Below, piece by piece: positions 766 to 29,008 of a DNA stretch of 46,147 nucleotides. Each line of letters starts with the position of its first letter. Position 1 is the first letter of the stretch. Both the position numbers and the translations under genes were made by a program. The notes beneath the pieces are model-generated. The model ran no database searches, was not told the origin of the DNA, and was given only the letters and a program-made list of their open reading frames with translations. Source of the stretch: a virus; the IMG/VR virus record IMGVR_UViG_3300045135_001080, positions 1-46,147 of that record. One strand, written 5' to 3'.

Positions 766-1599
766 ATGGCATTTAATTTTTCAGACAAAATAACAGGGTC
801 AGGCAGAAACGCTACTCTCATAGTCGATGCTCTAAACTTAGCTTTCAGATGGAAGCATCAAGGAAGAACGGATTTCTGTGATGACTATGTTAGAACAGTT
901 GAGTCTCTGGCAAGGTCTTACGATTGTAGTAATATAATTATTGCCGCAGATAAAGGATCTTCATCCTATCGTAAAGAGATCTCTCCCGAGTATAAGCAAA
1001 ACCGAAAAGATAAGTACGCAGATCAAACCGAAGAGGAAAAGCAAGCATTTCTAGACTTTTTTGAAGAGTACGAAAACTCTCTGGAAGCACTAGGAGACTT
1101 GTTTCCTGTTCTACGATATGATGGAGTTGAGGCAGACGATCTTGCGGCTCACTTAGTAAAAAATCGTAAGCGCTACGGGCTTGGAGACGTATGGCTTATT
1201 TCCAGTGACCGAGACTGGGATTTGCTTATTGATGAAAGAGTTGCTCGATTCTCTTACGTAACTAGAAAAGAAGTTACGTTGGAGAACTGGCACGAGCATT
1301 ATGATGTAAGCAGAGAAGAGTATATATCTCTCAAGTGTCTTACTGGAGATAAGGGAGATAATGTTGCAGGTATTCCAGGCATTGGACCAAAGCGAGCTGT
1401 AGATTTAATTCGCGAGTACGGGGATGCAATGGATATCTACAACTCGCTTCCTATAGATAGTAGATATAAACATATACAAGCATTGAATGATAGTGGAGAG
1501 CAATTACTAACAAACTATCAATTAATGGACTTATTAACATATTGTGATGATGCAATAGGGTCTGATAACGTATCAGATATAGAGCGGAAATTTGATTAA
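766..1599 (+). CDS. 5'-3' exonuclease / flap endonuclease (T5 D15, T4 RNase H-like)
   Basis: The protein has 277 residues and starts directly after the stop of the nuclease gene. It shows the FEN-family acidic clusters in order: D21 in IVDALN, D62 in AADKG, ExDD at 122-125, D148 and D150 in SSDRD, and the GDKGDN motif at 194-199. A helix-hairpin-helix (IPGIGPKRA, about 203-211) follows, as in T5 D15 exonuclease and the N-terminal domain of DNA polymerase I. Such enzymes remove RNA primers and 5' flaps during replication and degrade DNA from 5' ends. All metal ligands are present, so it should be active. The stop codon overlaps the nrdA start codon (TAATG), which suggests translational coupling. 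Confidence 0.93.
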   Translation: MAFNFSDKITGSGRNATLIVDALNLAFRWKHQGRTDFCDDYVRTVESLARSYDCSNIIIAADKGSSSYRKEISPEYKQNRKDKYADQTEEEKQAFLDFFEEYENSLEALGDLFPVLRYDGVEADDLAAHLVKNRKRYGLGDVWLISSDRDWDLLIDERVARFSYVTRKEVTLENWHEHYDVSREEYISLKCLTGDKGDNVAGIPGIGPKRAVDLIREYGDAMDIYNSLPIDSRYKHIQALNDSGEQLLTNYQLMDLLTYCDDAIGSDNVSDIERKFD

Positions 1600-3374
1600 T
1601 GAAGATTGATATAAATTATAGACGAGATAACTACTTATCTGAGTTTAGTATAAAAACTTTAGAAGATAGGTACATGGTAGATGGGGAGATCTCGCCACAA
1701 GATGCTTTTGCTCGCGCTGCTAAAACTTTTGCAGATGACGAAGCACACGCACAAAGACTCTATGACTACGCTAGCAAGTTGTGGTTTATGTTTTCTACAC
1801 CTATTTTAAGTAACGGAGGAACAAGCCGTGGACTACCTATTAGTTGCTTTCTTAACTACGTGGACGACAGCAGAACTGGTATTACATCTCACTACACTGA
1901 AAATGCTTTTCTTTCGTCAGTAGGCGGGGGCATTGGTGGAAGCTGGGACGGGGTCAGGAGTGTAGGCTCGAAAACGAGCAATGGCTCCGAAAGTACGGGA
2001 GTGATACCGTTTCTAAAAGTAGTAGATGCAGAGATGCTAGCGTTCTCTCAGGGCGTTACTCGACGTGGAAGCTATGCCGCCTACCTTGATATTGGACACC
2101 CAGAGATTGAAGAATTCTTGGATGTTCGTAAGCCTACAGGCGGAGATATTAACCGTAAGTCTATCAATCTACATCACGGCGTGGTGATTAGTGATAAATT
2201 TATGGAAATTATCGAAAATGCTACACGAATTGAAGGCTTTGATGATTCGTGGGATTTGGTTGACCCGCACAGCAAACGTGTTACTAAAACAGTATCAGCA
2301 AAAGCACTTTGGGTAAAACTTATCCAAAATCGTGTTGAAACGGGAGAGCCTTACATTATGTTTGGCGATACTGTTCAAGATGCGTTACCAGAGTTCCAAA
2401 AAGAACTGGGATTAAAGGCGCGTCAATCTAATCTTTGCTCTGAGATTACACTTGCAACGGATGAAGATCGTACTGCCGTATGTTGTTTGTCAAGTGTAAA
2501 TCTGGAAGAATATGACGAGTGGAAAGATAACGCCCAATTTATTCCAGACTTAGTAAGAATGCTAGACAATGTGCTAGATCATTTTATTGAGAAAGCACCT
2601 GATGAGCTAGAAAAAGCAAAGTTTAGTGCCTTTAGAGAAAGAAGTATTGGTCTAGGAGCGATGGGCTTTCATGCGTATCTACAAAGGCAAAACATTCCTT
2701 TTGAAAGTGCTCTTGCAAAGAGTGCTAACATGAGAATGTTTAAGTATATTAAATCGGAGGCAGAAAATGCTACTCGACTTCTTGCGAAAGAGCGTGGAGA
2801 CTGTCCGGACGGAATTGGTTATGGTATTCGCAATGCTCATTTATTGGCTATCGCTCCTAATGCTTCTAGCAGTATCATTTGTGGTAATACTAGTCCTAGC
2901 ATTGAGCCCTACCGCGCTAATGCGTTTACGCAGAAAACTAAAACAGGATCGTCACTACTCAAAAACGAATACCTAGAGCATCATCTAGATGAGATAGGAA
3001 TGAATGATGAGGAAGTTTGGAAGAGTATTCTTACAAATGGAGGAAGTGTACAACATTTGGAGTTTCTAGATGATTACACAAAAGACGTGTTTAAGACTGC
3101 TGTAGAAATAGACCAGCGATGGGTAATTGATATGGCAGCAGATAGGCAAAAGTACATTTGTCAGAGTCAATCTCTCAATGTATTCTTTCCTGGAAACGTG
3201 TCGAAGCAAGAGCTTCATGCAGTACACATGATGGCTTGGAAACAAAAAGTAAAGACTCTTTATTATCTGCGAAGTGAGGCAGTAAAAAGAGCTGAAAACG
3301 TATCAGTAGAGGCACTAAGGCAGTATATATTCGATTCAATCGATGAGAACGCTTGTTTAGCGTGTGAGGGGTAG
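1599..3374 (+). CDS. nrdA: Class Ia ribonucleoside-diphosphate reductase, large (alpha) subunit
   Basis: The 591-residue catalytic subunit reduces ribonucleoside diphosphates to deoxy forms together with NrdB, supplying dNTPs for phage replication. Recognisable elements are FSTPILSNGG (65-74), the redox Cys83 in SCFLN, the active-site NLCSE with N278, C280 and E282, the second redox Cys295 in AVCCLSS, the radical-transfer tyrosine pair in KTLYYL near the C-terminus, and a C-terminal CxxC (586/589) that would pass electrons from thioredoxin or glutaredoxin. The first residues lead straight into the alpha-helical domain, so the regulatory ATP cone of cellular enzymes such as the 761-residue E. 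coli protein is absent and allosteric overall-activity control by dATP is probably lost. No intein or intron interrupts it. It overlaps the upstream exonuclease stop by one base. Confidence 0.96.
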   Translation: MKIDINYRRDNYLSEFSIKTLEDRYMVDGEISPQDAFARAAKTFADDEAHAQRLYDYASKLWFMFSTPILSNGGTSRGLPISCFLNYVDDSRTGITSHYTENAFLSSVGGGIGGSWDGVRSVGSKTSNGSESTGVIPFLKVVDAEMLAFSQGVTRRGSYAAYLDIGHPEIEEFLDVRKPTGGDINRKSINLHHGVVISDKFMEIIENATRIEGFDDSWDLVDPHSKRVTKTVSAKALWVKLIQNRVETGEPYIMFGDTVQDALPEFQKELGLKARQSNLCSEITLATDEDRTAVCCLSSVNLEEYDEWKDNAQFIPDLVRMLDNVLDHFIEKAPDELEKAKFSAFRERSIGLGAMGFHAYLQRQNIPFESALAKSANMRMFKYIKSEAENATRLLAKERGDCPDGIGYGIRNAHLLAIAPNASSSIICGNTSPSIEPYRANAFTQKTKTGSSLLKNEYLEHHLDEIGMNDEEVWKSILTNGGSVQHLEFLDDYTKDVFKTAVEIDQRWVIDMAADRQKYICQSQSLNVFFPGNVSKQELHAVHMMAWKQKVKTLYYLRSEAVKRAENVSVEALRQYIFDSIDENACLACEG

Positions 3375-3375
3375 A

Positions 3376-4338
3376 ATGAGCAATTTATTAGAAGAAAGAG
3401 AATACTATAAGCCTTTTAATTATCCATGGGCTTTTGAGCACTATAAGTCTCAACAACATATGCATTGGCTACCAGATGAGGTGAATTTGGCAGACGATCT
3501 AAAAGACTATCGCGAAAAGCTGTCTCCAGAGAATCGACGACTTGTAAATCAAATCTTTCGATTCTTTACTCAAGCAGATGTAGACGTATGTTGTGGCTAT
3601 GCAAAGCACTATTTGCCTACATTTAAGCAGCCTGAAGTACGTATGATGCTGTCTGCATTTGCGGCAATGGAAGCCGTACATCAAGAAGCATACTCATTAC
3701 TTCTCGAAACACTAGGATTTGATGAGTCTGAATATCAAAAGTTTTATGAACACAAAGAGATGTTAGATAAGCATGAGCATCTTTCAAACTTTGGTATGAG
3801 TACAAAAATGGACATAGCAAAAACTATGGCTATTTACTCAGGCTTTACAGAGGGAGTGCAACTCTTTAGTAGTTTTGCGATTCTTCTTAACTTTCCTCGT
3901 CACAACCTTATGAAAGGTATGGGTCAGATTGTTACTTGGTCTATTCGAGATGAAAGTCTGCATGTAGAAGGTATGAGCCAATTGTTCCGTACTTTTATTC
4001 AGGAAAACCCAGAACTATGGACAGACGAGCTAAAATATGAAATCTATTGCGCTGCTGAGCGAACTGTAGAGCTAGAAGATGCGTTTATTGACCTTTGTTT
4101 TGAAGGTGCAGATGTACCCGATCTAACCCCGCAGGAGGTAAAGGATTATATTCGTTATATTGCAGATCGAAGGTTACTAGGTCTAGGCATGAAGAAGATT
4201 TTCAATAGTGAAAAGAATCCTCTTGAGTGGTTGGATTATATGCTCAACGGGGTTGAACACACTAACTTCTTTGAGAATCGAGCTACTGAGTACTCAAGAG
4301 CGAGTACTACAGGAAACTGGCAAGATATCTTTAAGTAA
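3376..4338 (+). CDS. nrdB: Class Ia ribonucleotide reductase, small (beta, radical-bearing) subunit
   Basis: I start this gene at ATG 3376 because a GAGGGG ribosome-binding site spans the end of nrdA just upstream. A GTG at 3364 would add four residues with no such site. The product has 320 residues. The di-iron ligands expected for an R2 protein are all visible: D68, E99, H102, E159, E193 and H196. Y106 sits at the position of the tyrosyl radical, in the pattern ExxHxxxY, so the enzyme is of the Tyr-radical class Ia type rather than a Mn or Tyr-less variant. The C-terminal tail (NWQDIF) would dock on NrdA. The gene lies one base from nrdA and is followed at once by a strong terminator. Confidence 0.96.
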   Translation: MSNLLEEREYYKPFNYPWAFEHYKSQQHMHWLPDEVNLADDLKDYREKLSPENRRLVNQIFRFFTQADVDVCCGYAKHYLPTFKQPEVRMMLSAFAAMEAVHQEAYSLLLETLGFDESEYQKFYEHKEMLDKHEHLSNFGMSTKMDIAKTMAIYSGFTEGVQLFSSFAILLNFPRHNLMKGMGQIVTWSIRDESLHVEGMSQLFRTFIQENPELWTDELKYEIYCAAERTVELEDAFIDLCFEGADVPDLTPQEVKDYIRYIADRRLLGLGMKKIFNSEKNPLEWLDYMLNGVEHTNFFENRATEYSRASTTGNWQDIFK

Positions 4339-19434: not shown

Positions 19435-22400
19435 TTAGGTATTCTTTAGCTCTTCTATCTCTTCTTTTAACTCTTTAATTGCTTCTACTAATAAACCTAC
19501 TAAGTTGCCGTAAGCTAGCGTTAGTTTTCCATCATGCTCTCCTACTGCCATAGGAAGTACTGATTGAACATCTTGAGCAATAAGACCTGTTCGAACTTCT
19601 TCTCTGCCTATAAAATTATAAGTATATCCCGTTAAACTTTGTACCTTACTTAAAGCATTTGGTATTACTTCTAAATTCTCTTTTAGTGTTAGATCTGAAG
19701 TTTCTTGAAGCAACTGACAGGTAACACTTCCATCTACTACAACATTTCCATTGAACTTTCCAGTACCATCACTTTGTAAAGTAATGCCCGTATTTCCATA
19801 ACCTCCGCCTATGTATGTACTACCATAAAGTGCGCTTAGTCCATTTGCAGAAAAAGTTCCGTCAACATCAAGAGTGCCATTAAAAGAGCCATTACCTGTA
19901 TTTGTAAAAGTAGACCCAGTACTTCCGTAACCTCCACCAACTTCAATAGTTCCTGCAGTTACATCACCTGTAAAAGTAGCATTAGTACCATCAGTACCAT
20001 TCTCAAGTACTTTACTAGTACCATTACTCGCAAATACATCACCTGTAAGAGATGTAGCTTCTGCCCCAGTTACAACTCCATTGAGAGTTACATTTGATGA
20101 TCCATCAATAGATACTGACCCAGAAAGGTCTCCTCCCAAAGTTATAGTACGAGCTATAGCCCACTTACTTGCAGTAGCTGCATTACCTGTAAGGTCTCCA
20201 GTTACGTTGCCTGTATGTATTCCAGTAGTATTACCTGTAAGGTCTCCAGTCACGTCACCTGTAAAAGTAGCATTAGTACCATCAGTACCGTTTTCAAGTA
20301 CTTTACTAGTACCATTACTTGCAAATACATCGCCTGTAAGAGATGTAGCTTCTGCTCCAGTTACAACGCCGTTAAGAGTTACATTTGAGGACCCATCAAT
20401 AGATACTGACCCAGAAAGGTCTCCTCCCAAAGTTATAGTACGAGCTATAGCCCACTTACTTGCAGTAGCTGCATTACCTGTAAGGTCTCCAGTTACATTA
20501 CCAGTTACATCGCCTGTAAGGTCTCCAGTTACATTACCAGTTACATCACCTGTAAGATCTCCAGTCACGTCACCTGTGAAAGTAGCATTAGTACCATCAG
20601 TACCGTTTTCAAGTACTTTACTAGTACCATTACTTGCAAATACATCACCTGTAAGAGATGTAGCAGTAGCACCTGCTACAGTCGTATTTAAAGTTACATT
20701 TGACGACCCATCAAGAACTACAGATCCTGAAGCATCTCCACTAAGAGTTATAGTACGTGGAGTAGCCCATTTAGTAGCTGTGTCTGCATTACCTGTAAGG
20801 TCTCCAGTTACATTACCAGTTACATTGCCTGTAAGGTCTCCAGTTACATTACCAGTTACATCTCCTGTAAGGTCTCCAGTTACATTACCAGTTACATTGC
20901 CTGTAAGGTCTCCAGTCACGTCACCTGTAAAAGTAGCATTAGTACCATCAGTACCGTTTTCAAGTACTTTACTAGTACCATTACTCGCAAATACATCACC
21001 TGTAAGAGATGTAGCAGTAGCACCTGCTACAGTCGTATTTAAAGTTACATTTGACGACCCATCAAGAACTACAGATCCTGAAGCATCTCCACTAAGAGTT
21101 ATAGTACGTGGAGTAGCCCATTTAGTAGCTGTGTCTGCATTACCTGTGAGGTCTCCAGTTACATTACCAGTTACATTACCTGTAAGATCTCCAGTTACAT
21201 TACCAGTTACATTACCAGTAAGATCCCCAATAAAAGTACCTGTTACAGTGCCGTCTGGAGCAACTCTAAAGTTTAAGCCACTATTGTCTCCGCCGTATAT
21301 TAGGCCGTCTGGGCCTGCAATATCTAGCCAAGCATCGTTATCAACACCCCAATTTGCAGTATCTGATTTAATAAACGAAGCGGCAGTACCATTCTTAGTG
21401 CCTGCAAAAATTCCCCGCGTAGTTGCATCTGTGCCTGTGGATATAAAAGTGCCTGCTATACAGGAATAATTATCTGCACTCGCTACATATAGTGCCGTAT
21501 CCCATCCGGTAGCTCCTATATCTACTCCACCCTCAACTAGACTTACAGTATGCGTGCCATCATTAAAAGTACTTGGAGTTAGCGTTGTTAGCCCTACAGA
21601 ATCGTCCTGAATATTTGAACCATCAATAGTACTAAAACTGAACGACCCCGCTCCATTTGTAGTGAGCACTTGGCCATTTGTGCCATCAGCAGTTACATCC
21701 GTTAAGTCCAGTAGAGTACTGTCTATAAAACTGAATGACCCCGCTCCGTCTGTGCTAAGTACTTGACCGTCAGTGCCATCTGAAGCTACGTCTGTTAGGC
21801 CAAGTAGTGAAGTTACTCCGCTCGCACTTGTGAAGGTAAATGACCCCGCCCCGTCTGTAGTAAGTACTTGACCATCTATACCATCTGAGCCTACGTCTGA
21901 AAGATCAAGTAGACTTGCAGGAGGTACATAGCTAACTCCGTTTGAAACTATGCTTACTATATCATCTGCTTCTGTGCCGTTTGCTAAAACTACACTTGTT
22001 CCGTTTGTGGCTGTATACTCTGACGGATCTAGTAATACACCATTTAGATATACTTCTAAAAAGTCTACCTCATAACTTACTGTAAAAAGGGTTTGGCCTG
22101 CGGTGGCTGTAAAAGAAGTTCTCTCATACTCTGTGCCTCCACCGCTGCCTCCAGTAACCGTGGAAAAGCTGAAGGTGCCTGCCCCATCTGTAGTAAGTAC
22201 TTGACCCTCGGTACCGTCAGCAGTTACGTCAGACAGGCTTAATAAACTATTTGGCCCATTTTTTACAGATAAAACTCGAATAGATTTTTGTCGTTGTTTA
22301 TCTGTATTTGCCTCATCTGAGCCTTCTGCAATAGTTACTGTAAAATCTAAAGGTACCGCAGAAAAATCTGAAACTTTATCTAATGTAATTTCGTAACCTG

Positions 22401-25400
22401 TAGCGCCTACATTTGCACTAGAAAATACTGTTTCAGCAGTTTGTGAAATTTCTGCATTATTAAATCCTGTGCCGGTTATTTTAAATTTCGGCTCTGCAAA
22501 GCCTTCTGCAGTCGCCGTAAGAACAATATTCGTATAGTCAGTTACTAAGGTCTCTTCTCCGTCGAAACTAAGAATACTTGGCGACATACTAAGGTCTGCA
22601 ATTCTAAGCTTGGTTTCCGTGTCTACAGAAACTATTAGATTTACAGGAAATACTTGGAATACTTCATTATTATTTTGAACAGCTGCAAAGGCTGCATCAG
22701 TAATTTTATCAAAAGTAAATGGTTGTCTCTTAATTATCGACCCCGCAGCTACTTCAGAATCAAAACTTCTATCCAAAACCATAGAAGTATCTGAGTTTAT
22801 AAATTGAACAAAAGCTCCTTGAGTGGAAGAAAAATATACTAAATCTCCAATATTGAACTCAGAGCTAAAGCTAGTGCCAGTTCCACTAACTATTGTAGAT
22901 TTTGCAGGCACGCTTACAGTGCCTGTTTTAGTTACAAAACTTCCCTCTCCTGAAACACTGCCATCTCCTGCATCATAAAAGTAGCTAACACCTAAAGAAT
23001 TTGTTTCTATTTGAGTATCATTGTACTTAATTAATTTTAAAGGATCATTTACATCACTTGCGTCAAAAAAGATATAATGCCTTTTAATTTGAGCCTCTAC
23101 TTCGTCCATAGCAGAGTAATCTAAAGAAGCAACCCCGCTACAGTCTTGAGAGTAACGAGTTGCAGCTCCTCCTTCAAAAATATATTCTTTTGCGGGCTGT
23201 GCTACAGGAGAAAACTTGTATTTAGAAGTATTCTCTAAACTAAAAGTACCTGTACTATTAATAAATATAGGAGTGCTTATTGTGCCGCCCAAAGCAATTC
23301 CATAACCTCTGGGAACTGTAGGCGGTTCCTGTACTTCTTCTACTACAAACTTTGTCTTAACTAAGTCCGATCTATTTCCATAGATACTAATAGTAGCAAT
23401 TCCTACTTCATAGGTTCCGAGAGGCAGAACTTCGGGCCCTATAGAAGTTAAATCTGAACTTATTATTAAAGGATTAGTAGCATTTGATAGGTTATGATGC
23501 ACTTCATAGTACTTAATAAATTCGTAGTTACTATTATCGGAATTTTTTGGAGACTCCCATGATAAGCTAACTTTATTTTGCAGCTCTCCGGACTTTGTTA
23601 CTATTAAATTAGTAGGGGGTGGTACTACAGGGGAAGCACTTAATAGAGTATCTACATAAGGCTGAGAAAAGTCTTTTTCAATGTCATCAAACTTTTCATT
23701 GTAATGCTCTACTGCTGAAATATTGTAAGTTAGTTCATCATTCTTTTGAATGTTAAGAATCTTATATAGCTTCTTAGAACCTTCTATCTCTTCCCCAGAA
23801 GAAGCAGTCTCCTTTAGCGCCCATACGGTTTCTGCGTTAGGGGCGGCAGAGAATGCAGTGGAAACTGTTAAAGTATCAGTAGTTTGATTAGACTCTTGTA
23901 TCTCCTGACTCTCTACTCTAGTATAAGGAGACCAAGAGGTTACTACAGCCTCTCCTGAATCATCTACTAAGTTTGCGGCCTCTTCTTCGGTGTAAGAGCC
24001 TACTATTAGCTCTCCCTTAGTATACCCAACTCCTCCTATTATGGCATCATCTTGAGCCAAAAATACTCCTGGCTCTTCTATTAAAATACTCAACTCATAA
24101 GTATTACCGCTTAGAGTGACTTCTCGGTCTAATGGTATTTCGGACGAAGTTAATACTCCAGTGGAGGATACTCTACCAGAATAAGCAGTATTATATCTAT
24201 CTGCGTCCTGTATATTTATTATGTCGCCAGGAGCTAAGAAAGACGCATTTATAGAAGTACTAAAACTTGCCACTTCTTTTTGATTGATAGCTGTCCACAG
24301 CTTCCATCTACCGTATCTAGTAGCTTGTCCTAGCGAAGTTGTTCCGAATGCTACCGCTTCTGAGGAAATTATTTTTCCTGTTTTTACAATATTTTGACGG
24401 TCTTCTACTATTAAAGGTTCTAGTACATAGTCATTTTCAGGGTTATTCCAAGTTACAACTATTTGATTAGTTCTTAATTTCTCTGAAGTTCCTTGATACG
24501 AGAATTCCCCATTTATAATATTACCTTTTGTAAACGTGTAAATAGGATCTTTTGCCTGGTCTAAGACAGGAGTTATATTTCCTTCAGACCAATAAAGCAT
24601 TGCTCTGAATATTGTAGCAAAATCTTTCAGTATTTTATAAGCGTCAGTAGCTTTAGAGACATATACATTAGAAGTAAATCTCGGCTCAAGCCCACCCTTG
24701 CCATCAGGAACTAACTCATCGCAATACCTGGCTATTCTGTACAAGGTATATTTATCTATATCACTAGTATCTAACCAGTTTCCAAGTCCGTACCTTGCGT
24801 TAGTAATTAAGTCTAAAAATACCCAAGCAGGATTATTTGAATATACAAGATTTTGCCTAAAATTTCCGTCCCAATCTTGATAAGAAGACTCTATATTACC
24901 TGTGGTAACATTTCTATTATAGGTAGCTATACCTTCTAAAGATTCGTCCCTTGTAACATAATTGGAGGGAACAGCTATTAATTTACCTTTACAAACATAT
25001 GATCTTGTAGGAGTATCCGGAAAATTCTTAGAACTTACTCTAACTTGAGCATAAGAAGTCCAAGGGTAACTGAACTCCTCCCTAATTATACAGGTAGAGT
25101 TCTGCAGCGTAGACTGAAGTTGTGCATTATAACCTACTTTATCATAAGTAAAGTCTGACCTAACCGACCTATCATCTTTAGTTACTTTAGTTATTTTTAA
25201 ACGAAAAGTTTTAAAAGGCTTGTACTTATCTAAGCTAAAAGTTTCAGTGGTAAAGGTAAGAGCTCTTTGGTTTCCTTTATGTACAATATAGCCTCCCCCA
25301 TCAACCATATTGATAGGAGTTTCAAAGCCGCTGCCTTTGTCTAACTCTATTTGTACTAAATAAGCTTGTACTCCGGCACTTAACTCTCCGGTTTCTTCTT

Positions 25401-26466
25401 TTACTACAACTAAGGAAGGATATGTAAAGCCGAGTCTTAGCTCGTTTACTTGAGGTGCGGTAGCATTTGATAATCCTAAAGAAGAAGCAGTTTTAATTAT
25501 AGTAGTGCCTACTTCAGTGCTGGGCCATGTAGTAGAGTAATGATTGTTATCTACGTTAAAAGGCTCATTCAATGTAGTAGTTATAGCAGTAGCTCCAGAG
25601 CCCCCATAAGGATCTTCTATGGGTTCTTGTATAGGTAGTCCTGTTCTAAATTGATAACTAAACTTCTCGTATTTACTACTTTCATCTATAAAAGTAGTAG
25701 TAGCAAGATCTGGAACAAAATTTAAAGAACCTATATTACAATTAAATGTACCACTCAAACTAGTTGTACTTTCGAGCTGTATCCTAGAATTGCTAGAATC
25801 TATATTTTGTAAGTTGCTAATTGCAAGGCTGAAATCAATTATTACTTTATATTCTGTTGAAGCATCTGCCGTATCTACAAAATTAGGACTTAAAGTTTTG
25901 GTGATAGGAGTTGCAATAGCAACAGTATCAGAAGTAATATCTGTAATATATCCTTCAAAATAAACAAGATTATCTCGTTCTAGCCTAAGGATAGGTTGAT
26001 TCGGGCCCCTTTGTATAGATCCGTTAGAGCTTACTACACTATCTTTTAAGTAGTCTGAAGAAAAGAAAGCTGTAGGAACTGTTATTTCTATTTCATCAAA
26101 TTCTGTAGTAGCTGTTTTAACTGCAGAACCTGCTCCAATAGAATCAAATTCTACTACTCTTAAGTACCTGCTATCTTGCGCTCCTGGAGTGTTACTTTGT
26201 ATAATTAAAGTACCTGGGTGCTCTATATCAACAACTGAAGTACCATTAAAAGTAAAAATAGCACTAGTTTGAGATAGTGGGAGTCTAGCATAAGCAGAAT
26301 CTACAGCAGTATCTTGATTTAGATAAATTGAGTTAGAACCTCTTTCCAAGCCGTAGATAGGTCCCTCACAGATAATATCTGTAACAGATAGTATCTGTTC
26401 TTTAGAAGTGACAGAAGCCGCAAGGTTAGTTATTTCGTTTGTGTTTAAATTAGTTATAGCAGGCAT
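19435..26466 (-). CDS. Lambda J-like tail tip protein fused to a tail fibre with S74 chaperone
   Basis: The 2343-residue protein begins like lambda gpJ and its relatives (SVTDIICEGPIYGLERGSNS, about 27-46). The J base, with SYPWTSYAQVRVSSKNFPDT and WVFLDLITNARYGLGNWLD, extends to about residue 930. A fibronectin-III-like domain lies near 942-1052 (NLIVTKSGELQNKVSLSWES). Stem repeats of the type LLDLTDVxxDGTxGQVLTTDGAGSF occur about five times between 1408 and 1640, with a DFLEVYLNGVLLDPSEY beta module among them. A GNVTGDLTG repeat region covers about 1745-2168. The end (2257-2343) is an S74 intramolecular chaperone, starting SDLTLKENLE and including TGLIAQDVQSVLP, followed by a coiled coil. 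In this family the chaperone trimerises the fibre and then cuts itself off at the Ser. It is the central host-recognition protein at the tail tip. Confidence 0.94.
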   Translation of the reverse strand: MPAITNLNTNEITNLAASVTSKEQILSVTDIICEGPIYGLERGSNSIYLNQDTAVDSAYARLPLSQTSAIFTFNGTSVVDIEHPGTLIIQSNTPGAQDSRYLRVVEFDSIGAGSAVKTATTEFDEIEITVPTAFFSSDYLKDSVVSSNGSIQRGPNQPILRLERDNLVYFEGYITDITSDTVAIATPITKTLSPNFVDTADASTEYKVIIDFSLAISNLQNIDSSNSRIQLESTTSLSGTFNCNIGSLNFVPDLATTTFIDESSKYEKFSYQFRTGLPIQEPIEDPYGGSGATAITTTLNEPFNVDNNHYSTTWPSTEVGTTIIKTASSLGLSNATAPQVNELRLGFTYPSLVVVKEETGELSAGVQAYLVQIELDKGSGFETPINMVDGGGYIVHKGNQRALTFTTETFSLDKYKPFKTFRLKITKVTKDDRSVRSDFTYDKVGYNAQLQSTLQNSTCIIREEFSYPWTSYAQVRVSSKNFPDTPTRSYVCKGKLIAVPSNYVTRDESLEGIATYNRNVTTGNIESSYQDWDGNFRQNLVYSNNPAWVFLDLITNARYGLGNWLDTSDIDKYTLYRIARYCDELVPDGKGGLEPRFTSNVYVSKATDAYKILKDFATIFRAMLYWSEGNITPVLDQAKDPIYTFTKGNIINGEFSYQGTSEKLRTNQIVVTWNNPENDYVLEPLIVEDRQNIVKTGKIISSEAVAFGTTSLGQATRYGRWKLWTAINQKEVASFSTSINASFLAPGDIINIQDADRYNTAYSGRVSSTGVLTSSEIPLDREVTLSGNTYELSILIEEPGVFLAQDDAIIGGVGYTKGELIVGSYTEEEAANLVDDSGEAVVTSWSPYTRVESQEIQESNQTTDTLTVSTAFSAAPNAETVWALKETASSGEEIEGSKKLYKILNIQKNDELTYNISAVEHYNEKFDDIEKDFSQPYVDTLLSASPVVPPPTNLIVTKSGELQNKVSLSWESPKNSDNSNYEFIKYYEVHHNLSNATNPLIISSDLTSIGPEVLPLGTYEVGIATISIYGNRSDLVKTKFVVEEVQEPPTVPRGYGIALGGTISTPIFINSTGTFSLENTSKYKFSPVAQPAKEYIFEGGAATRYSQDCSGVASLDYSAMDEVEAQIKRHYIFFDASDVNDPLKLIKYNDTQIETNSLGVSYFYDAGDGSVSGEGSFVTKTGTVSVPAKSTIVSGTGTSFSSEFNIGDLVYFSSTQGAFVQFINSDTSMVLDRSFDSEVAAGSIIKRQPFTFDKITDAAFAAVQNNNEVFQVFPVNLIVSVDTETKLRIADLSMSPSILSFDGEETLVTDYTNIVLTATAEGFAEPKFKITGTGFNNAEISQTAETVFSSANVGATGYEITLDKVSDFSAVPLDFTVTIAEGSDEANTDKQRQKSIRVLSVKNGPNSLLSLSDVTADGTEGQVLTTDGAGTFSFSTVTGGSGGGTEYERTSFTATAGQTLFTVSYEVDFLEVYLNGVLLDPSEYTATNGTSVVLANGTEADDIVSIVSNGVSYVPPASLLDLSDVGSDGIDGQVLTTDGAGSFTFTSASGVTSLLGLTDVASDGTDGQVLSTDGAGSFSFIDSTLLDLTDVTADGTNGQVLTTNGAGSFSFSTIDGSNIQDDSVGLTTLTPSTFNDGTHTVSLVEGGVDIGATGWDTALYVASADNYSCIAGTFISTGTDATTRGIFAGTKNGTAASFIKSDTANWGVDNDAWLDIAGPDGLIYGGDNSGLNFRVAPDGTVTGTFIGDLTGNVTGNVTGDLTGNVTGNVTGDLTGNADTATKWATPRTITLSGDASGSVVLDGSSNVTLNTTVAGATATSLTGDVFASNGTSKVLENGTDGTNATFTGDVTGDLTGNVTGNVTGDLTGDVTGNVTGDLTGNVTGNVTGDLTGNADTATKWATPRTITLSGDASGSVVLDGSSNVTLNTTVAGATATSLTGDVFASNGTSKVLENGTDGTNATFTGDVTGDLTGDVTGNVTGDLTGDVTGNVTGDLTGNAATASKWAIARTITLGGDLSGSVSIDGSSNVTLNGVVTGAEATSLTGDVFASNGTSKVLENGTDGTNATFTGDVTGDLTGNTTGIHTGNVTGDLTGNAATASKWAIARTITLGGDLSGSVSIDGSSNVTLNGVVTGAEATSLTGDVFASNGTSKVLENGTDGTNATFTGDVTAGTIEVGGGYGSTGSTFTNTGNGSFNGTLDVDGTFSANGLSALYGSTYIGGGYGNTGITLQSDGTGKFNGNVVVDGSVTCQLLQETSDLTLKENLEVIPNALSKVQSLTGYTYNFIGREEVRTGLIAQDVQSVLPMAVGEHDGKLTLAYGNLVGLLVEAIKELKEEIEELKNT
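19438..19698 (-). other. Peptidase S74 (endosialidase-type) chaperone domain of the J-like fibre
   Basis: These are the last 87 codons. The conserved Ser-Asp start (SDLTLKEN, predicted cut before Ser2257), the GLIAQDV motif and a terminal EAIKELKEEIEELKN coiled coil are visible. It is the only S74 domain in the window although there are at least eight fibre genes, so the other fibres must trimerise without one or with help in trans. Confidence 0.85.
19961..21230 (-). repeat. Tandem coding repeats in the J-like fibre stem
   Basis: Four copies of a long unit begin at 19961, 20252, 20567 and 20918 on the + strand scale, spaced 291, 315 and 351 bases. They are nearly identical over most of their length. 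The units differ mainly in how many short GNVTGDLTG steps they contain (24 to 36 bases each). All spacings are multiples of three, so copy number can change by recombination or slippage without breaking the frame. Confidence 0.93.
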
Positions 26467-26476
26467 TTTATTTTCC

Positions 26477-27190
26477 TTAGTTTATTCTTTCACCATCCAA
26501 GAATTCTAGTTCCCATCCTGTTGTGATATCTACTTTTGTTCCTTCTTTATTTACTGAGTAGTCTCCAGAGGCATCTACCATATTTCCATTAGTATCTATA
26601 GTAGTTGAAGCATTCGCAGAGGTTGAGTACACAGCTACGGATATTGGCTGACCTGGCACTCTTAATTTACCATACAGTATTGGAATAGGATCTCCTTCTA
26701 TTACTAAGGAAGCGTCTCCATTGTACAAATATGCTTCTTTTTCTTCGTCGTCTTCGGAAGGGTCAGGGGCTAAGAGTTGTTGTATTCCTGCTAAAGCCAA
26801 GTTAGTACCTACTGCTGTCAATGTGCTTCCTAGCAGTTTTGCCCCCTTTCCAGCGCTTGCAGCATTTCCTGTCATAACTCCGGCAACTACTAGTACAGCC
26901 GCTAACAGTATTTTTCCTATTCCCTTCTTGCCGGAACCTGCAGGTATAATGGTTAAATTAACATCTCCTGAAGATATAGGAAGTTTTAAATCTTTTTTCT
27001 GAATAGGTACTCCAGCGGTTCTTATATCTATGCCGACACCTTCCTGGTAAGATTCTAGAAGGAATTCCTTAAATCCGGGGCGATTACAATCTATACAATT
27101 TATAATATCTGCATATTTTTCAGCATTCATATAAAAGCTTTCGCCAAATTTATCTTTAAGAACTCCGTGTAAGTATACTGTACGATGCAT
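26477..27190 (-). CDS. Lambda I-like tail assembly protein (TAPI)
   Basis: The 237-residue protein begins MHRTVYLHGVLKDKFGESFY, the usual start of the phage tail assembly protein I family. Its N-terminal domain (about 1-85) has the ubiquitin-like fold described for this family. A hydrophobic, Gly/Ala-rich segment (about 92-115, IGKILLAAVLVVAGVMTG) looks membrane-seeking. The C-terminal part (about 155-237) has YLYNGDASLVIEGDPIPILYG, a strand shared with I-family proteins. In lambda, gpI is needed with gpJ, L and K to build the tail tip initiator. The order L-K-I-J is kept here. The gene begins eight bases after the K-like gene. Confidence 0.88.
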   Translation of the reverse strand: MHRTVYLHGVLKDKFGESFYMNAEKYADIINCIDCNRPGFKEFLLESYQEGVGIDIRTAGVPIQKKDLKLPISSGDVNLTIIPAGSGKKGIGKILLAAVLVVAGVMTGNAASAGKGAKLLGSTLTAVGTNLALAGIQQLLAPDPSEDDEEKEAYLYNGDASLVIEGDPIPILYGKLRVPGQPISVAVYSTSANASTTIDTNGNMVDASGDYSVNKEGTKVDITTGWELEFLDGERIN

Positions 27191-27198
27191 ATTTCTCT

Positions 27199-27528
27199 CT
27201 ATTGTGGCTCTAATAAGTGCATTTCCATGCTCGGGTAAGAAAAAATGTAATACGGGATTTGCACTGCATTACATTGAAGTATATCATATTCGCTAGGATT
27301 GCAGCTAATATTAACATGACTGTGAACAATTCCTACTACTTCCTTTGAGTAGTAAATATTTAAATATTCGTCTGTATCCATTATGAAGTCTTGATCATCT
27401 TTTGCTATATTTGTTATAGGAAAGTACTCTATTACCCCAAAATTATTAACTATTACTCCGCAGGCTTCTTGTGGAGCACTTTTTTTAAAATGATCTTTTA
27501 TTTCTTTCGTAGGTAGTTCTAATATCAT
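27199..27528 (-). CDS. Lambda K-like tail tip protein, JAB/MPN metallopeptidase domain only
   Basis: The 109-residue protein has the complete JAMM metal site: E21 in QEACG and HSH at 69-71 followed after seven residues by S79 and D82 (H-x-H-x7-S-x2-D). Lambda gpK joins such a JAB domain to an NlpC/P60 peptidoglycan hydrolase domain; here the protein ends after the JAB domain, so the wall hydrolase half is missing. The JAB domain lies next to the ubiquitin-like I protein, the pairing noted in the comparative literature as resembling ubiquitin/deubiquitinase modules. It overlaps the L-like stop by four bases. A Zn-dependent processing role in tail tip assembly is an inference from the intact site. 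Confidence 0.88.
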   Translation of the reverse strand: MILELPTKEIKDHFKKSAPQEACGVIVNNFGVIEYFPITNIAKDDQDFIMDTDEYLNIYYSKEVVGIVHSHVNISCNPSEYDILQCNAVQIPYYIFSYPSMEMHLLEPQ

Positions 27529-28628
27529 CTAAATTTTTCACTTCCAGGAAAGGCTCCAAAAGGAAGCACTTTAGAAGTATTTTTTTCTATTGAAGCAAAA
27601 GAGTCTGTGCTATCTGGAACAAATTGAAACCTTGACTTACAAGAGTTTAAAAGTTTACCGCATATATCTCCTTTAACCCACAGTCTAGAAGAGTTAGAAG
27701 GCTCGTCATTAGTATTAGAGGCAGCTTTTCTCCATATAGTATTATTATGCTCTACGTAAGAACTTTTTTCCGGAGTACTCTTAGTGTATGTATAAGAGCC
27801 AGCAATATCCCACACAGTATAAGGTCTAACAATAGTCCAGTTTAAATTAGAACTAGAAGGTTCTGAATTTGAATTACTGTAATCACATCTCCAATATAAG
27901 TTATTGTGTAGGACTAAAGTGTCTGGAGTATAGTTTGTACTATTAGACCAAGCGCCTGGAGAAGCAGCCACTAAGTCGGATTCTAACACTATCGGCTCAT
28001 CGTCTATTGTAAAATAAGCTTTGTATTCAGTAGTGCCTATTCGAATTGTACTGTCAGACTTCCAATTACAACCGCCTCTTCCTGTTCCCGCACCTTGATA
28101 AATCCAAGAACAATATTTACCTACAACTGTTCTACTAGGGATTTGAATACCTTCTAAATCAAAAGAAGATGCCAGCTCAAAAGTTACCGATGTTTTAGTT
28201 TCTTCTGCTACTCTATCTATTATGAATTTTTCAGTAGGAAACTCTATTGGAGGTGATGCGTCTCCAACTTCTCCAAATAAATATTTTTTAAGTGTAAGTC
28301 TTCTAACTATCGTTTTACCTACTAAATCATCGTTTGCAAGGCCTCCTAAAGAAGAAGAAAACGTAGCTAAAACATTTGCTATAGTAATTGTAGGGCGAGG
28401 AGACGGCCCCTCTCCATTTTTTTCCAAACCTTCTATTTCTATAGGGAGCGCGACATAATCACGCACAGTATAAGGATCTTGCTTGTCCCTAAAAGATACT
28501 GTGGATAAATCTTTCTCTAACCCTGGGTGAAAATAAACTGAAACTGTAGGAGTAACCTTTAACTCAAAAAGTTCTACTAAGGCGCTTCCAGGATCTTGAA
28601 GTTGTACTGCTTGTATTAATTCGCTCAT
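27525..28628 (-). CDS. Lambda L-like minor tail protein with inserted carbohydrate-binding-type repeats
   Basis: The 367-residue protein matches the minor tail protein L family in its first 190 residues (LFELKVTPTVSVYFHP, RDYVALPIEIEG, LASSFDLEGIQIPSRTVVGKYCSW). Lambda gpL coordinates an iron-sulfur cluster through four cysteines in its C-terminal domain. Here the equivalent pairs are C173/C187 (KYCSWIYQG...GGCNWKS) and C323/C330 (CGKLLNSCKSRF), but some 135 residues separate them, far more than expected. The insert holds two similar units (about 226-264 and 273-317) with the pattern W-x-Y-x-V-x-NNLYW-x-P-x-W, the signature of CBM5/12-type sugar-binding modules. It ends with the family's PFGAFPG-type tail. 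Confidence 0.88.
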   Translation of the reverse strand: MSELIQAVQLQDPGSALVELFELKVTPTVSVYFHPGLEKDLSTVSFRDKQDPYTVRDYVALPIEIEGLEKNGEGPSPRPTITIANVLATFSSSLGGLANDDLVGKTIVRRLTLKKYLFGEVGDASPPIEFPTEKFIIDRVAEETKTSVTFELASSFDLEGIQIPSRTVVGKYCSWIYQGAGTGRGGCNWKSDSTIRIGTTEYKAYFTIDDEPIVLESDLVAASPGAWSNSTNYTPDTLVLHNNLYWRCDYSNSNSEPSSSNLNWTIVRPYTVWDIAGSYTYTKSTPEKSSYVEHNNTIWRKAASNTNDEPSNSSRLWVKGDICGKLLNSCKSRFQFVPDSTDSFASIEKNTSKVLPFGAFPGSEKFR

Positions 28629-29008
28629 GCTTCATATACTCGTCTAAAAGTTGCGGAACAGGAATAGAACCTATCATAATCATAAGAAATAGAGTAATTA
28701 TCACATACAACTTTGATTGTAGTTTCGTCCTCCGTTCCATTAGTATCAGGAATCGTAAAAGAAAAAGCAGTGACTCCTTTTAAAGAGTCAAAATATCCTA
28801 CTATGTCATCTATTTCTTCTTTAGTTCTAGTTTTAAAACTAACGGAATAATTTTCCGTTAAAGAATTAATACCGTTTGCTAGTCTTTGCTCATATCCGTC
28901 TCCAAAACTAGCTAGTAATACTTTTGGCGTAGTTGATCGAGCCATAGATTTATCCGGTACTATGTCTCTGCTGCCAAAAGTAGCGGTAGTTGTAAATCCT
29001 GTTGCCAT
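28625..29008 (-). CDS. Lambda M-like distal tail / minor tail protein
   Basis: The 127-residue protein has the gpM/distal-tail pattern: a Gly-Asp-Gly-Tyr-Glu-Gln-Arg motif (SFGDGYEQR), a central NYSVSFKTRT strand, an alpha helix with FDSLKGVTAFSFT, and a closing YDRFYSCSATFRRVYE strand. In lambda, gpM joins the tail tip complex next to the tube. The start overlaps the tape measure stop by one base and its stop overlaps the L-like start by four, so M, L and K form one translationally coupled block. Confidence 0.9.
   Translation of the reverse strand: MATGFTTTATFGSRDIVPDKSMARSTTPKVLLASFGDGYEQRLANGINSLTENYSVSFKTRTKEEIDDIVGYFDSLKGVTAFSFTIPDTNGTEDETTIKVVCDNYSISYDYDRFYSCSATFRRVYEA

Follow-up and report, generated by a model that had tools for sequence, protein, structure and literature searches.

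The phage under study is known from metagenomic DNA only, here as a stretch of 46,147 nucleotides (IMG/VR record IMGVR_UViG_3300045135_001080, positions 1 to 46,147; hereafter the window). Its tail genes raise the question of what a lambda-type tail-tip hub protein is doing with two modules of a carbohydrate-binding type lodged between its two conserved cysteine pairs, and whether such modules would bind sugar at all. The hub gene and its neighbors are laid out as follows, in window positions:

28625..29008, minus strand: M homologue (distal tail protein), upstream of L; Pfam Phage_min_tail, 9.5e-22
27525..28628, minus strand: tail-tip hub protein L homologue; ORF with an ATG start, 367 aa
27199..27528, minus strand: K-like protein of 109 aa with a JAB domain only; Pfam Prok-JAB, 2e-9
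26477..27190, minus strand: I-like tail assembly protein; PHROG 32, 2e-33
19435..26466, minus strand: J-like central fiber protein, 2343 aa; Pfam Phage-tail_3, 6e-22, and Peptidase_S74, 2.8e-11

The ORF at 27525-28628 is a lambda-type L, and this identity is secure. It matched Phage_tail_L (PF05100) in Pfam at 3.8e-27 over residues 56-187 (95.4 bits against a cut-off of 25), PHROG 18 (minor tail protein) at 1.1e-41, and lambda gpL (8iyk_L) by phmmer at 2.6e-13, while its structural model matched 8iyk_L in Foldseek at 2.6e-9. The lambda gene order M-L-K-I-J was present around it, with a 1438-aa protein occupying the tape-measure position before M. The Phage_tail_L match, the phmmer match to lambda gpL, and this gene order uphold the initial annotation, which had called the ORF a tail tip protein L. 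No NlpC/P60 domain match was obtained in Pfam for the 109-aa K-like protein. The J-like protein consists in part of long GDLTGNVTGNVTGD-type repeat runs, which are followed by the C-terminal S74 chaperone domain.

Other genes of the window were also noted. Four adjacent minus-strand genes between 7243 and 15062 encode proteins with an Mtd_N domain (Major tropism determinant N-terminal; 2e-12 to 9e-18), with lengths of 353, 459, 353, and 1344 aa, and the 459-aa protein carries seven FG-GAP_2 repeats. Together they could possibly serve as interchangeable receptor-binding tips; the ORFs scanned included no reverse transcriptase. Genes for the large and small chains of ribonucleotide reductase (1.1e-114 and 1.3e-75) lie at 1599-4338 on the plus strand, opposite to the tail genes.

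Within L, we distinguished the following parts:

28113..28628, minus strand: N-terminal domain, equivalent to HDI of lambda gpL (residues 1-172); lambda L alignment, modelled strands 17-154
28068..28112, minus strand: first cysteine pair, C173...C187; both invariant in the 26-sequence alignment
27666..27986, minus strand: insert that follows the conserved DDEP motif and precedes DICGK (residues ~215-321); comparison with L proteins lacking the insert
27828..27956, minus strand: CBM5/12-fold module 1 (residues 225-267); relatives' profile 3.8e-9, own profile versus ChiA1 (1ed7) 1.2e-5
27672..27821, minus strand: CBM5/12-fold module 2 (residues 270-319); relatives' profile 2.3e-9, own profile versus ChiA1 (1ed7) 7.9e-7
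27639..27662, minus strand: second cysteine pair, C323...C330 (CGKLLNSC; CxxxxxxC spacing); invariant in the 26-sequence alignment

The cysteines of L fall at residues 173, 187, 248, 323, and 330. Across the 26 aligned proteins, which are 38-88% identical to the window L, C173, C187, C323, and C330 were invariant (26/26), and in the same alignment C248 was not. The two pairs proposed at the outset, C173/C187 and C323/C330, were thus confirmed, as was the gap of about 135 residues claimed to separate them, there being 135 residues between C187 and C323. Lambda gpL (8iyk chain L) and T1 gp36 (9l9p chain J) have the hub fold, the gene position, and the four-cysteine pattern in common with the window L, but both lack the insert, with few residues leading from the DxxP motif to the second cysteine pair. 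The lambda-type L proteins of cultured phages show the same arrangement, in which the DxxP motif is followed by a few residues and then the second pair (S-H1: YFDLNDNPTNAANDQCGKRYTSC), whereas in the window L a TIDDEP motif is followed by about 106 residues and then DICGKLLNSC. The shared motif and the long stretch after it thus place the insertion precisely in the loop that separates the cysteine pairs. The bounds of the insert were taken from comparison with the L proteins of S-H1, KBS-S-2A, SSU5, V1VFA, and H4907 and with those of loci L062-L064.

The insert comprises two similar units. Profiles from which the window sequence and its near copies had been left out placed unit 1 at 225-267 and unit 2 at 268/270-319; among all ORFs of the window, these unit profiles from relatives found the L ORF at 4e-16 and 6e-17 and no other ORF below E=0.3. 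Local alignment of unit 1 against unit 2 scored 78, compared with 27.6 +/- 5.4 for shuffled sequences, of which 0/5000 scored as high. A chance repeat is therefore ruled out by the shuffles together with the independent profiles, which likewise bear out the two units that had first been noted at about 226-264 and 273-317.

The assignment of these units to CBM5/12 does not come from the window sequence alone, which against CBM_5_12 in Pfam gave E=0.22 and 12 bits, below the 26.2 cut-off. The family was matched in 14 of 26 relatives (best 5.6e-8), and three of the nine relatives scanned singly exceeded the curated cut-off (L037, 33.1 bits; L039, 29.7; L042, 28.6). Compared with the CBMs of Vibrio chitin deacetylases, the module profiles gave 0.013 for module 1 and 1.3e-6 for module 2. 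When the insert was modelled alone (model mdcb2dc0082d0; mean pLDDT 90, pTM 0.80), its top Foldseek matches were again Vibrio chitin deacetylases, at 4.3e-4 over ~100 columns; it also matched the chitin-binding domain of Streptomyces ChiC (2d49) with an rmsd of 1.2 Å over 43 columns (TMt 0.72) and, in a comparison with viral models, proteins labelled CBM5/12 or ChiA1-BD. Judged by profiles and predicted structure, the modules are therefore CBM5/12 by both descent and fold, and the CBM5/12-like character first suggested for the insert is supported by the unit profiles, by Pfam in the relatives, and by the model with its Foldseek matches. Superposition of both modules together on the deacetylases gave an rmsd of ~10 Å, and so the placing of one module relative to the other differs between the two. 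ChiA1 (1ed7), ChiC (2d49), and the CBMs of Vibrio chitin oligosaccharide deacetylase have the fold and core residues in common with the window modules, and the Vibrio deacetylases, like the window L, carry several CBM-like stretches in a row; those domains, however, sit in enzymes, whereas the window modules sit in a tail hub and are without the ligand aromatics.

We then examined how the insert is distributed. A scan of viral contigs yielded 51 loci, a set biased toward insert-bearing proteins because two of the search patterns came from the insert. One group of relatives, of 331-347 aa, has one module and another group has two. Module 2, which adjoins the second cysteine pair, was present in every complete insert-bearing relative, and module 1 was absent in ~40% of distinct relatives. 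Still longer insertions occur in L047/L048 and in L050-L052; in L050-L052, as seen at L050:1030-2523 and L052:86-1579 with ~85-90 residues, a second insertion lies within the first cysteine pair as well. In a tree built without the insert columns, the insert-bearing clade stood apart from four insert-less proteins with support of 99/98, and module number changed at least once on the tree, where the two-module label of L047 and L050-L052 is less certain. On this tree, two modules look ancestral. No module turned up elsewhere than in L, either in the window or in the loci fetched.

Among cultured phages, 853 records of the collection had the L domain and none had the insert. A tblastn search with the insert plus C-terminus over 50,697 cultured-phage records returned one match at E=0.5 (S-H1), to a protein without the insert, which rules out that the insert is widespread in cultured phages. 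The cultured Synechococcus phage S-CBS4 has a 465-aa L (gp036; L053:1962-3359) with a long, unrelated insert between the cysteine pairs, for which Pfam gave no CBM match. A prophage host was sought through genome contigs and was not fixed, as only two insert-bearing matches were obtained, both in metagenome-assembled bins, one labelled Euryarchaeota (L060:6001-7215) and one Porticoccaceae (L061:6001-7071); the two contigs are probably phage contigs.

As a CBM5/12 fold alone is not proof of sugar binding, the ligand residues were considered separately, with 28 modules aligned with ChiA1 and ChiB. The core positions W656, Y662, V668, Y675, P689, and W696 (ChiA1 numbers) were mostly retained (W656 aromatic in 27 modules, V668 in 23, and Y675 as W/Y/F, P689, and W696 in all). 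The position of ChiA1 W687, a surface aromatic that binds chitin, was aromatic in 0/28 modules. ChiB W479 and Y481 are considered important for contact with chitin (PMC3257281); the Y481 position was likewise aromatic in 0/28, and the W479 position was Tyr only in window module 1 (Y250) and its near copy. As the modules retain the fold core but lack the ligand aromatics, they should not be presumed to bind chitin or cellulose. The chitin/cellulose-type ligand implied by the initial annotation was accordingly not borne out, the stacking aromatics of ChiA1 and ChiB being absent from nearly all modules, and the case for a chitin-binding adhesin is lowered. From these alignments, chitin would be an unlikely ligand by the known mode, while other sugars are possible.

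The same annotation had called the tail tip near the tube exit an unusual adhesin position. An insert does occur at that position, which is less unusual than claimed, as the hubs of RcGTA and roseophage R4C also have an insertion in the same split Fe-S domain. In RcGTA hub g13 (Rcc01696), an ion-binding domain (143-167 and 250-263) is split by an oligosaccharide-binding domain (168-249), a name that reflects its resemblance to the LKA1 tailspike insertion (PMC7296036). The R4C hub (vBDshSR4C_014) has an RcGTA-like layout, in which segments 142-161 and 244-266 flank an inserted domain, likewise called oligosaccharide-binding, at 162-243 (PMC10276861). The C-terminal region of gpL has also been described as hypervariable (PMC13243795). 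The window L resembles these hubs in having a domain inserted between two Fe-S segments (215-321, between C187 and C323). The inserted domains themselves differ: that of RcGTA was likened to the LKA1 gp49 insertion and a T4 hub domain, not to CBM5/12, and RcGTA and R4C have a single inserted domain where the window group has one or two tandem modules. The A1 profile search returned no RcGTA or R4C hub at E<=1, and the best structural matches of the insert were CBM5/12, so that homology with the RcGTA domain was not supported. According to PMC10688798 and PMC7291167, sugar-binding modules are also inserted in a tail-tip core protein in the "evolved" Dit of Gram-positive siphophages, but there the core protein is Dit and not an Fe-S hub, and the CBMs are of other types. 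The architectural idea is therefore already known from the RcGTA and R4C hub layouts; what is new here is the CBM5/12 fold, the tandem and variable number of modules, and the phage group. We found no report of CBM5/12 modules in an L-type hub in the literature searched, a body of work that leaves most subscription journals outside its scope.

Taking these observations together, we hold with moderate confidence that the protein is a lambda-L-type hub with acquired, surface-exposed accessory glycan-binding modules, and not the primary receptor-binding protein. An ancestor of the phage group would have acquired two tandem CBM5/12-fold modules in the short loop between the cysteine pairs. By analogy with lambda, we infer an L trimer at the tip, whose three copies would expose six modules around the outside. 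There the modules would most likely serve as accessory binders, with low affinity for sugars of the host surface (capsule, LPS, or other exopolysaccharide). They might thereby steady the tip while J, or separate fiber proteins such as the four with Mtd_N domains, locates the main receptor. Support for an accessory glycan-binding role comes from the RcGTA and R4C hubs, which have sugar-binding-type domains at the same place.

The modules could instead be structural, that is, CBM5/12-fold beta knobs acting as spacers or as docking sites for side fibers or J, without a sugar ligand. The loss of the ligand aromatics makes this a real alternative, all the more with the core residues mostly kept, and it would fit with module 2 lying beside the second cysteine pair in every complete relative. 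Foldseek with the insert also matched phage tail-fiber and baseplate chains (9rkv and 8fqc), and for phage Milano (8fqc), the garland proteins have been described as belonging to a connected receptor-binding protein chain (PMC10811340). A fixed contact would, however, sit oddly with a module number ranging from one to two and with the extra insertions of L047 and L050-L052, and the insertions in RcGTA and R4C were read as sugar binding by their authors. We therefore regard a purely structural role as possible but unlikely.

A different concern is the Fe-S site itself. The argument for a predicted cluster comes from the invariance of the cysteines and the RcGTA and R4C precedent, by which the cysteines of the window L would hold an Fe-S cluster. 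The insertion is long, and confidence in the full-length model was low around the first cysteine pair (pLDDT <50 at 157-191), as might be expected had the insert disrupted the site and left the cysteines as relics or disulfides. This is nevertheless quite improbable, given four cysteines that do not vary across proteins as little as 38% and at most 88% identical to the query, and given RcGTA and R4C hubs that coordinate a cluster across an insertion of 80 residues.

A role for the modules as the main receptor-binding site, with a chitin-like or GlcNAc polymer as ligand, is highly improbable. Their fold is that of chitin-binding domains, and Y250 of window module 1 occupies the position of ChiB W479, but the ligand aromatics are otherwise absent, and J with its S74 chaperone and the four Mtd_N proteins are available for the role; the latter are better receptor-binding candidates than the L modules. 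Finally, sugar binding by the modules could itself be the sensing step, with a pull on them being transmitted to the cluster domain and promoting hub opening for DNA release. We consider this proposal highly improbable; if true, it would assign a signalling role to the Fe-S cluster of L-type hubs, which is so far unexplained.

CBM5/12-fold modules join the list of Fe-S-loop insertions in tail hubs, beside the unrelated domain of RcGTA and R4C. This suggests that the Fe-S loop may be a general site at which phages display surface modules while the cluster is kept. The cysteines stay invariant while the insert that they flank changes, which supports the idea that the cluster acts as a staple tolerating insertions. 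As one- and two-module versions occur naturally, the roles of both the cluster and the modules are testable.
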